A DNA stretch of 64,000 nt from positions 62,001 to 126,000 of the forward strand of contig CAJXYU010000004.1 of NCBI GenBank assembly GCA_913063155.1, in the 5' to 3' direction. The notes beneath the pieces were generated by a model that saw only the letters and a program-made list of their open reading frames with translations, was not told the DNA's origin and did no database searches. How positions within the stretch are numbered: the stretch's first letter is position 1; each line of letters opens with the position of its first letter. A program made the position numbers and the translations under genes. This document shows positions 10,478 through 13,126 of this stretch, piece by piece. The stretch is from an uncultured Desulfovibrio sp. Lineage in GTDB: Bacteria; Desulfobacterota; Desulfovibrionia; Desulfovibrionales; Desulfovibrionaceae.

Positions 10478-10588
10478 TACTCTATTGAGGGAGGACCTGA
10501 TTCAAAAACTCCCGGTACTCGTCCTACGGAATATAAACAATCCATCCCAGACAGGGTGTACATATAGCTTTTCCAAACAATGATAAAC

Positions 10589-10655
10589 TGTTGAAACAAG
10601 AGCTCAGAATTAGCCTGCCCTCACGTCAACTGACGCAGAATACGCCGGAACCGGC
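10589..10655 (+). promoter_or_regulatory. Candidate enhancer (upstream activating) sites for a sigma-54 activator
   Basis: Three short inverted repeats lie 45-110 bases upstream of the -24/-12 element. They are TGTT-GA-AACA at 10589-10598, CGTCA-AC-TGACG at 10624-10635 and GCCGG-AA-CCGGC at 10644-10655. Bacterial enhancer-binding proteins bind dyads at about this distance. Which repeat is used, if any, cannot be told from sequence, and no sigma-54 activator gene is in the window. Confidence 0.35.
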
Positions 10656-10698
10656 CTTTCGCCCAGAGTCAATACCTTATTTTTATTACATATTGTCT

Positions 10699-10714
10699 TG
10701 GCACACCCATTGCT
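10699..10714 (+). promoter_or_regulatory. Sigma-54 (RpoN) promoter of the MinD/ferredoxin operon
   Basis: The sequence TGGCACACCCATTGCT matches the consensus TGGCAC-N5-TTGCW with exact spacing, GG at 10700-10701 and GC at 10712-10713. The predicted transcription start is near 10725, followed by GGAGG at 10731-10735 and the ATG at 10742. The match, the position and the operon type agree with the reported sigma-54 control of the D. vulgaris orange-protein operons. Confidence 0.85.
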
Positions 10715-10741
10715 TCACAAAAGTCAAAAAGGAGGTTTCAT

Positions 10742-10981
10742 ATGTACGACAATCAATATCGCAATGGTTCCGGCAATGGAAGGCGTAATGGAATGTGCCG
10801 TTTCGGAAGTGGTGCTCGAGGCATGGGCGGCCGATTCGGTTGCCGCCAGGGATACGGCCCGGGCATGGGCCGCAATGTCGGGTTCCAGATGGATGATCGG
10901 CAGCAGTTGCAAACCAGACTGGAGGCTCTTGAGGCGGAAACCGAAATGATCAGACAGCAGTTGAAAAAGACTGAAAGGTAA
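10742..10981 (+). CDS. Small Gly/Arg/Met-rich protein with C-terminal coiled coil (DUF5320-like)
   Basis: A 79-residue protein. Residues 1-45 are low complexity, rich in Gly, Arg, Asn and Met, with two cysteines (19 and 34). Residues 50-79 (DDRQQLQTRLEALEAE and after) form a short charged coiled coil. This layout resembles DUF5320-type proteins often encoded beside MinD/Mrp ATPases and NifX/NifB-like orange proteins in anaerobes. GGAGG lies seven bases before the ATG. It is the first gene behind the sigma-54 promoter and two bases from the next gene. A role as a partner or metal-cluster handler is an inference. Confidence 0.8.
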   Translation: MYDNQYRNGSGNGRRNGMCRFGSGARGMGGRFGCRQGYGPGMGRNVGFQMDDRQQLQTRLEALEAETEMIRQQLKKTER

Positions 10982-10983
10982 AA

Positions 10984-11862
10984 ATGCAGATAGCTATTGC
11001 AAGCGGCAAGGGAGGGACGGGCAAAACGACTGTGGCCACCAACCTTGCCGTTCATTTCAGCAGACAGGGTAAAAAGGTTACATTCATCGATTGCGATGTG
11101 GAAGAGCCTAATGCCCATTTTTTCCTGAATCCGAATTGGCATGACGAACGAAATGAATTTGTCCCGGTTCCCAAAATTGACAGCGCCAAATGTCTTGGCA
11201 GCGAGTGTCGGAAATGTATCGACCTCTGTCGGTTCAAGGCCTTGATCTGGATGGTGGACTCCGTACTGGAATTCCCGGAACTTTGCCACGGTTGCGCTCT
11301 GTGCGAACTGGCCTGTCCCGCGGGGGCCATTCAAGAAGCCACACGGCCCCTCGGAATTTCCCGGCTGGGAAAAACCGACTCCATTTCGCTTTACAGCGGT
11401 CTTTTACGTATCGGCGAGGCCATGGCCCCGCCTCTCATAAAAAAAGTGAAGCAACGCGCCATAACGGAACAAAATGAGCATGACGTACGAATCATCGACT
11501 GCCCTCCGGGTGCAACCTGCCCCGTGGTGGAAGCCCTTGAAGATTCCGATGCGGCAGTGCTGGTGACTGAGCCGACTCCGTTCGGACTACACGACCTGAA
11601 GATCGCCGTGGAACTCTTGAGAAAGGTACGCATACCCTTCGGGGTGGTCATCAACAGAGCCGGCATGGGTGATGACCGTGTCCAGAACTACCTGGAGAAC
11701 GAGAATATATCCTTGCTGGGAACACTTCCCCACAGCCTGGAAGCGGCAAATGCCTACTCCAAAGGCTCCTTGCTCATCAACCAAGTCCAAGGATACGCCT
11801 TATCGATCGCGGATATAGCCGGAAACATTCACACTCTGGCAGCTTCTGAGAGCAAATCATGA
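10984..11862 (+). CDS. MinD-superfamily P-loop ATPase with inserted ferredoxin domain (first copy)
   Basis: A 292-residue protein with a deviant Walker A KGGTGKTT (residues 9-16). A ferredoxin insert follows, with ligands Cys70/75/78/82 and Cys101/104/107/111, consistent with two [4Fe-4S] clusters; the first motif has C-x4-C instead of C-x2-C. The MinD fold resumes after it, with IDCPPGATCPV as the switch region. Such proteins (D. vulgaris DVU2103/DVU2104 type) are found in anaerobes and belong to the orange-protein complex. The stop overlaps the next start as ATGA. Iron-sulfur or heterometal cluster assembly is the likely general role, but the substrate is unproven. Confidence 0.9.
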   Translation: MQIAIASGKGGTGKTTVATNLAVHFSRQGKKVTFIDCDVEEPNAHFFLNPNWHDERNEFVPVPKIDSAKCLGSECRKCIDLCRFKALIWMVDSVLEFPELCHGCALCELACPAGAIQEATRPLGISRLGKTDSISLYSGLLRIGEAMAPPLIKKVKQRAITEQNEHDVRIIDCPPGATCPVVEALEDSDAAVLVTEPTPFGLHDLKIAVELLRKVRIPFGVVINRAGMGDDRVQNYLENENISLLGTLPHSLEAANAYSKGSLLINQVQGYALSIADIAGNIHTLAASESKS

Positions 11863-12728
11863 AACAAGTCGTCGTCATAAGTGGAAAGGGAGGAACCGGA
11901 AAAACCTCCATCACGGCTGCACTGGCCGGAGTCGGCCCCCAAAAAGTCATTGCGGACTGTGACGTGGACGCCGCCGACCTGCATCTGATCCTGGACCCGA
12001 AAGTGAAACTCCGTGAAGACTTTTACAGCGGTCAAACTGCAACCATCAACACGGAACATTGTATTGAGTGCGGACAATGCGCAGAGCAATGCCGTTTCAA
12101 TGCAATTTCAGTCTCATTTGAAATCGTTAAAGAAAAATGTGAAGGCTGCGGCCTGTGTGAATTCATTTGTCCCACCCAAGCCGTCAGCATGACCGACCGC
12201 AAATGTGGGCACCGCTTTGTCTCCAATACCCGATTTGGAACCATGGTGCATGCCGCCCTTGGCATAGGAGAAGAGAACTCCGGAAAACTGGTGACAGCAG
12301 TCCGCAAGACAGCCCGTGAGCTTGCCGAGGCCGAAAAGGCGAAGCTGGTACTGGTGGACGGTTCTCCCGGCATAGGCTGCCCGGTCATAGCTTCCCTGAC
12401 GGACATTGATTTCTGTATTCTGGTGGCCGAGCCCACGGTTTCAGCCGTGCATGACCTCAAGCGTGTCCATGAGCTTGCCCGTCATTTCGAGGTTCCCTGC
12501 ACGGCTATTTTGAACAAATGCGGCATCAATGAGTCTTTGGAAAATGAAATCAGGAAGTACTGTCGGGAAAATGAAATCCTCATCTTGGGGGAATTTCCCT
12601 ACGACACCACATTCTCGCAGGCGCAGATCCATGGCAAAACCGTTGCTGAATTTGCGCCAGACACCTTCGGCCCTACGGTTCGTAATATATGGAGTAGAAT
12701 GGCGAAAACCTTGGAACTACCGGACTGA
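11859..12728 (+). CDS. MinD-superfamily P-loop ATPase with inserted ferredoxin domain (second copy)
   Basis: A 289-residue paralogue of the preceding gene. Walker A is KGGTGKTS at residues 10-17. The ferredoxin insert has canonical C-x2-C-x2-C-x3-C sets at Cys68/71/74/78 and Cys94/97/100/104, and VDGSPGIGCPV marks the switch. The two paralogues are cotranslated through an ATGA overlap and probably form a heterodimer, as MinD-type ATPases dimerise around ATP. The insert differs from the first copy in having regular spacing in both motifs. It is followed four bases later by a Cys-rich protein gene. Confidence 0.9.
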   Translation: MKQVVVISGKGGTGKTSITAALAGVGPQKVIADCDVDAADLHLILDPKVKLREDFYSGQTATINTEHCIECGQCAEQCRFNAISVSFEIVKEKCEGCGLCEFICPTQAVSMTDRKCGHRFVSNTRFGTMVHAALGIGEENSGKLVTAVRKTARELAEAEKAKLVLVDGSPGIGCPVIASLTDIDFCILVAEPTVSAVHDLKRVHELARHFEVPCTAILNKCGINESLENEIRKYCRENEILILGEFPYDTTFSQAQIHGKTVAEFAPDTFGPTVRNIWSRMAKTLELPD

Positions 12729-12732
12729 CGAT

Positions 12733-13098
12733 ATGGAAAAAATACTGATCATCGGCTGCAAAAATACAATGGATGACGTTTGCATCGCTTGTTCCCGCTG
12801 CTTGGTCGGCTTCAACCGAAGAGAAGGAGCTTTTGAGGAGTACAAGAAAGCGGATGCCGAACTTATAGGCCTTCTGGGCTGCGGAGGATGTCCTGGAGCC
12901 GGAATTGCCCCTCGCCTAGCGCAGGTAAAGCTCTGGAACGCCCCCATGAAAGAGAAGCCAACAAGAATCCATCTGGCTCCGTGTATCGCTTCCCATTGTC
13001 CTTACAAGGAGGATATCATAGAAAAAATCAAGAAACTTTCCGGAATCGATGTGGTAACAGGAACACATCCATACCTTCCCGAAAAAATTTTCGCATAA
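12733..13098 (+). CDS. CGGC-type cysteine-rich protein
   Basis: A 121-residue protein starting at the ATG at 12733. Eight cysteines occur: Cys9, a C-x2-C-x2-C set at 17/20/23, Cys50 and Cys53 in GCGGCPGAG, and Cys84 and Cys89 in LAPCIASHCP. The CGGCPG signature and the later HLAPC...HCP motif match the small CGGC-domain proteins of anaerobes, thought to bind metal but not characterised. It ends the sigma-54 operon. Its ribosome site is poor, so it may depend on translation of the ATPase gene four bases upstream. Confidence 0.8.
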   Translation: MEKILIIGCKNTMDDVCIACSRCLVGFNRREGAFEEYKKADAELIGLLGCGGCPGAGIAPRLAQVKLWNAPMKEKPTRIHLAPCIASHCPYKEDIIEKIKKLSGIDVVTGTHPYLPEKIFA

Positions 13099-13100
13099 AA

Positions 13101-13126
13101 AAGGGGAGCTCCCAGGAGCTCCCCTT
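13101..13126 (-). terminator. Rho-independent terminator after lpxI
   Basis: A perfect 12-base stem (AAGGGGAGCTCC / GGAGCTCCCCTT) with a CA loop. On the reverse strand it is followed by a run of T residues (13102-13097 region), which suits termination of the lpx operon. On the plus strand only TTCTC follows, so it would end the MinD operon less efficiently. Confidence 0.85.

Follow-up and report, generated by a model that had tools for sequence, protein, structure and literature searches.

The orange-protein (ORP) complex is described as specific to anaerobes, its job as unsettled and a role in cell division as only putative (PMC6345978, in the available part of that paper). In Desulfovibrio vulgaris both orp operons are reported to be regulated by a cognate activator (PMC3897727), and MrpORP transfers Fe-S clusters to apo-Orp3-Orp4-Orp8 in vitro (PMC6345978). 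The comparisons made here with D. vulgaris Hildenborough (DVU2103-2105, DVU2106 and DVU2107-2109) draw on the published descriptions, as far as the accessible parts of these go (PMC3897727, PMC4641369, PMC6345978).

The window, a 64,000-nucleotide stretch (C4:62001-126000) of the 4.3-Mb genome of an uncultured Desulfovibrio sp., carries an operon of four plus-strand ORFs, which encode in order a small Gly/Arg protein, two MinD-type ATPases (MinD1 and MinD2) and a CGGC protein. This operon is probably the relocated orp2 half of an ORP system, still under the sigma-54 activator located at orp1, with a CGGC protein, putatively a metal-cluster protein, added. In common with orp1/orp2 of D. vulgaris, as published, are the two ATPases of MinD type (two [4Fe-4S] motifs per protein), a sigma-54 promoter, a GAFTDA activator with palindromic sites, one of them at the activator gene, and the presence of ORP and MrpORP within the same predicted regulon. 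The two systems differ in that the operons are unlinked here and divergent in D. vulgaris, and in that the window operon has an extra CGGC gene, while the ribbon-type small Fe-S protein was not found.

The window operon and its ATPases

The first gene (10742-10981) specifies a 79-aa Gly/Arg protein with two cysteines and a short, coiled-coil-like C-terminal end. It is followed by MinD1 (10984-11862; 292 aa), MinD2 (11859-12728; 289 aa), and a 121-aa CGGC-domain protein with eight cysteines (12733-13098; PF08821, E 1e-27). As the first two genes are 2 bp apart, MinD1 and MinD2 overlap by 4 bp, and the CGGC gene follows after another 4 bp, the four genes are likely to share one transcript. Pfam identifies the flanking genes as a divergent AsmA, as the earlier note had it, and a convergent LpxI. 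In the space that separates CGGC from the convergent LpxI gene is a hairpin (13101-13126; -22.1 kcal/mol, z -4.85) that may be a terminator; it was not among the output of a simple terminator scan. ORFs, cysteine counts and Pfam matches all agree with the four-gene parts list first proposed for this locus. Upstream, the proposed exact-spacing promoter is borne out by a -24/-12 element on the plus strand, TTGGCACACCCATTGCT (10698-10714), which matches all 13 specified consensus positions. Neither strand of the window has another 13/13 match (the runner-up reaches 12/13), and the exact pattern occurs once.

Both ATPases combine a MinD/ParA-type P-loop with a Fer4 match in Pfam, each carrying a 2x[4Fe-4S]-type ferredoxin insert; MinD1 is Orp3/Orp4-like. 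When 10 sequences of each paralogue, the window's included, are aligned, all eight insert cysteines prove invariant, both in MinD1 (C70/75/78/82/101/104/107/111) and in MinD2 (C68/71/74/78/94/97/100/104). The two proteins are 34% identical, and their description as paralogues with eight-cysteine inserts is confirmed. Identity with the cell-division MinD (TIGR01968) was rejected, the equivalog scores being 50 and 34 bits against a cut-off of 212.9. Separately, a further cysteine is invariant in both paralogues seven residues past an invariant Asp (C179 and C174; window 11497-11520 and 12357-12380), at a position that may correspond to the cluster ligand Cys132 of the nitrogenase Fe protein.

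A search of the genome revealed no close homologues of these ATPases elsewhere in it, and none beside an orp locus, where their presence would have spoken against the earlier proposal. The next match to MinD1 beyond the pair itself is MrpORP (E 7.7e-8 over 46 residues). MinD2 matches occur in 58 of 60 genomes (its own and 59 relatives), two in each, which equals one pair per genome, and in a family sample only one genome in 106 (G164) holds two MinD2-type genes.

The distant orp1 half and gene order among relatives

A whole-genome search with PF02579 returned seven matches, three of which fall in a run on contig C1 with the order HypA-HypB-activator-NX166-ORP-MrpORP. The activator, two PF02579 genes (one of them ORP-like) and MrpORP occupy C1:262.5-266.2 kb. 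MrpORP scores 534.5 bits against the NCBIfam profile NF041136 (cut-off 450), the Orp8-like ORP scores 82.6 bits against PF02579 (cut-off 26.3), and NX166 lies barely above the same cut-off (26.6 bits against 26.3). The activator possesses PAS, sigma-54 interaction and Fis-type HTH domains, the HTH match being under its cut-off. Its sequence includes the GAFTDA motif, a variant listed for DVU2106 in a table of PMC4641369, the available part of that paper. Both the orange protein and the DVU2106-type activator are thus present, on contig C1, and the observation that no orange-protein gene lies beside the operon holds for the neighbourhood and fails for the genome. Two further features of this locus were observed: the PAS region of the activator (L008 10839-12182) contains several cysteines (CDGSCALKECIDC) and is a possible metal or redox sensor; and a NapH-like membrane ferredoxin gene (L008 7381-8400) lies downstream of MrpORP, as it does in three relatives (L072, L073 and L074).

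Layouts were compared among relatives in loci fetched around the MinD pair or around MrpORP. In nine type A relatives (those with a fused MrpORP) the system is unsplit (G061, G122, G103, G094, G040, G041, G038, G056 and G037). NX166 and ORP lie upstream of MinD1-MinD2, MrpORP follows within 0.4 kb of MinD2, and the activator is upstream in seven. These clusters have in common with the window's genome a homologous MinD pair (MinD2 54-61% identical), NX166, ORP and MrpORP, but form one cluster, with MrpORP next past MinD2 and no CGGC gene beside the pair. The full order HypA-HypB-EBP-NX166-ORP-MinD1-MinD2-MrpORP, complete in five of the nine, is the sum of the two split halves.

The split layout was examined in 20 genomes from five genera of the family. 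The MinD pair adjoins AsmA in all 20 and LpxI in 19 (in G082 the contig ends), and the activator, NX166, ORP and MrpORP lie at a separate place in every one; the orp1 loci fetched from these genomes revealed no further MinD pair. On a MinD2 tree of 43 rows, all 20 split rows fall on one side of a branch with support of 97/95, which recurs in 97% of 200 bootstrap trees, and a single change of layout suffices. This clade, together with the common AsmA/LpxI site, argues for a single relocation that split the ORP cluster in an ancestor. The MinD pair and the promoter uphold the proposed likeness to a sigma-54-driven orp2 operon. Further orp2 features are the ORP and MrpORP found in the genome and, by sequence only, a GAFTDA activator with palindromes upstream of both operons.

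A third, divergent layout occurs in G074, where MinD2-MinD1 face an activator-NX166-ORP arm. This D. vulgaris-like arrangement (L188 7460-14776) has a CGGC gene within its orp1 arm, and its Mrp and ORP-like C-terminal domain match as separate stretches. Type B systems of the window's genus have more distant ATPases, 42-48% identical to the window's MinD2, and Mrp matches that stop before the ORP domain; each of the 13 loci fetched has an ORP gene immediately upstream. In a sample of 36 genomes of the genus, five hold the split type A pair and 30 are type B by identity; in G014 (81% complete) MrpORP is present and no MinD pair was found. None of the 36 holds both types, which therefore seem mutually exclusive within the genus, suggesting replacement of the whole system. 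The loci concerned are L008 8537-12182, L072-L076 and type B loci such as L066, L078 and L090.

Predicted operators of the orp1-located activator

Six genomes of the genus have a 15-bp palindrome (GGCGNANNNTNCGCC-like) immediately next to the start codon of the activator gene, a position that would fit repression of the activator by itself; negative self-control is reported for DVU2106 (PMC3897727, available part). Upstream of the orp1 sigma-54 promoter the palindrome occurs in two copies, 30-31 bp apart, in five of the six, and as one clear and one weak copy in the sixth (G031). An operator profile was built from 17 sites at orp1 and activator loci, with none from orp2, and then run over the orp2 loci. 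In 17 of the 20 split loci it ranked first at the orp2 promoter: nothing in the 11-64 kb of the locus scored higher than a site in the 250 bp that precede the orp2 sigma-54 element. In the remaining three, the best site there ranked fifth, third and second. With 200 column-permuted profiles, such first ranks numbered 0.3 of 20 on average and 9 at most, and two profiles reached 5 or more. The 20 split genomes share descent and do not count as independent.

In the window itself, the candidate operator GACGCAGAATACGCC (10632-10646) is the best of 63,986 positions, at 17.25 bits against 13.84 for the next, and lies 61 bp upstream of the GG of the sigma-54 promoter. A weak second operator-like site (10601-10615; 9.1 bits, rank 13 in the window) lies 31 bp upstream of the first, a spacing that resembles the 30-31 bp at orp1. 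The distance from operator centre to promoter GG is 59-62 bp in the five split members of the genus, compared with 62-64 and 93-94 bp at orp1, and beyond the genus it varies from 60 to 106 bp. Genome-wide, the bare operator consensus has 57 matches and the reversed pattern 47, so the argument rests on position and conservation, not on rarity. The D. vulgaris orp2 activator site is placed at -88 from the start site in the accessible part of PMC3897727, and the candidate operator in the window is estimated at about -86; an IHF site between operator and promoter, as expected from D. vulgaris, was sought in the window, with nothing found beyond chance. Comparative motif reconstruction has been reported for activators of the Desulfovibrionales (PMC4641369, in part), and so the operator may already be on record for some relatives.

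Considered together, orp1 and the window operon look co-regulated, as members of the same predicted activator regulon, and control of the window operon in trans by the distant activator is predicted. With ORP, MrpORP and a GAFTDA activator in the genome, and operator data that place the operon in the predicted regulon, the suggestion of a module that functions in the absence of an orange protein is not supported. Nor is the idea that the CGGC protein stands in as cluster acceptor or donor, since a candidate acceptor (ORP) and a candidate donor (MrpORP) are both encoded. What survives of the proposed rewired metal-cluster module is an orp2-like operon with a CGGC gene; we read the rewiring as a half that has moved, not as a replacement of the orange protein. 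At the level of sequence comparison, the gene content, the relocation, its single clade and the operator with its spacing are all in evidence.

The CGGC protein and the small proteins beside the MinD pair

The CGGC protein matches PF08821 at 96.9 bits (cut-off 27) and contains the CGGC motif. Its structure model is a confident Rossmann-like fold, which showed no clear relative among the solved structures compared. The protein can be aligned from end to end with nine relatives, of which four belong to split operons (68-77% identical) and five are encoded 1.3-1.9 kb behind type B pairs (64-68% identical). Residues invariant in a nine-sequence cross-phylum alignment include C9, C17, C23, C50, C53, C89 and H112; compared with the PF08821 family, the pair-linked members share the additional C20 and C84, which are not invariant across phyla. 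Among the papers searched, none was by its title a study of CGGC proteins, which have apparently not been studied so far.

Of the 20 split genomes, 15 have the CGGC gene directly behind MinD2; none of the nine unsplit ones does, and there MrpORP takes that place. The CGGC gene is missing from the operon in five split genomes (G206, G148, G065, G130 and G071), a distribution that on the MinD2 tree fits an early gain followed by two losses, although the tree of the CGGC protein is too weak to prove this. All five genus genomes with the split type A pair, the window's included, keep the gene in the operon; its absence from near relatives, which would have counted against the earlier note, was not observed, and its standing as an operon member is supported in the genus. 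Among 159 genomes sampled from the family, 106 have a MinD2-type ATPase (E<=1e-60), 60 have a CGGC gene and 56 have both; in these 56 the gene lies behind MinD2 within 100 bp in 12 and within 2 kb in five more; a place within 2 kb is estimated to arise by chance, for a single gene, in roughly one genome in 1000. Across many phyla, 8 of 80 named pair loci contain a CGGC gene, six of them within 5 kb. These proximity counts indicate that the association of the CGGC protein with the MinD pair is genuine yet optional.

The CGGC gene could also be a bystander that travelled with the relocated operon and has no functional tie to it. The five split genomes whose operon lacks it, and the 39 of 56 family genomes with both genes in which no CGGC gene lies within 2 kb of MinD2, lean that way, but we consider this rather unlikely given the 17 of 56 in which it does lie within 2 kb downstream, its occurrence in the orp1 arm of G074 and next to type B clusters, which are organised differently, and the eight cross-phylum loci, in seven of which it is on the same strand as the pair. 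The most likely role of the CGGC protein is to bind a metal or an Fe-S cluster as an accessory to the MinD pair. More tentatively, the protein may be an unrecognised but recurrent component of ORP-type MinD systems across anaerobes, a cysteine-rich, Rossmann-like carrier of metal or clusters that acts directly with the pair and took the operon position of MrpORP here after the split, a reading to which we give somewhat less than even weight.

The 79-aa protein resembles DUF5320 (PF17253) below the cut-off (14.8 bits against 27), a family whose cut-off a protein from a relative's cluster (L054) passes with 78.2 bits. The small Gly/Arg protein is not conserved among the 20 split genomes: in 14, the interval from promoter to MinD1 contains a Gly/Arg ORF preceded by a ribosome site, and no such ORF was found in the other six, which include G023 and G017, the closest two in MinD2 identity. 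In 34 of 80 named loci from many phyla, a Gly/Arg protein that ends in a six-cysteine ribbon is encoded close to the pair (for example, L054 7251-7487), and a ribbon protein of the pattern CxCPxCG...PCxxxxCPxCG precedes MinD1 in four of nine unsplit relatives. This ribbon-type small Fe-S protein may be Orp5, which is called homologous to a [2Fe-2S] protein in the available part of PMC6345978. No match to it was found in 19 of the 20 split genomes, including that of the window (G000), for which 150 of 178 first-look candidates were scored; in G078 it is encoded on a contig other than those of its two orp loci.

It has therefore to be asked whether the CGGC and Gly/Arg proteins replaced a lost small [2Fe-2S] protein of the Orp5/SIP type. 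The distribution of the ribbon protein and the reported homology of Orp5 are in keeping with such a replacement, which is nevertheless unlikely: five of the nine unsplit relatives have neither the ribbon protein nor CGGC in the locus, equating DVU2105 with the ribbon protein is a matter of inference, and five loci (L061, L095, L107, L125 and L156) hold both proteins, so that the two are not alternatives in general. That the operon has left the ORP system altogether, to form an independent MinD/CGGC module under a new regulator, is very improbable: it contains no PF02579 gene and has CGGC in the post-MinD2 place of MrpORP, but the orp1 loci fetched from the split genomes yielded no pair of their own and the orp1-derived profile peaks at the orp2 promoter in most of them.

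For a relocated orp2 half, the following mechanism can be proposed. The activator would bind palindromes that precede each of the two sigma-54 promoters by about 60 bp and so switch on the two unlinked operons, orp1 and the window operon, together. MrpORP would load [4Fe-4S] clusters into the MinD1/MinD2 pair, which, so fed, would handle clusters under nucleotide gating, and whose ATPase cycle may serve to assemble or position an ORP-type metal-sulfide complex. The CGGC protein would be an added carrier or scaffold for this cluster handling.

The natural split, combined with the conserved operator, provides an independent test of which ORP genes belong together, and the split loci propose a site for the activator across 20 genomes. 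The split operon also points to the CGGC protein as a possible ORP partner.
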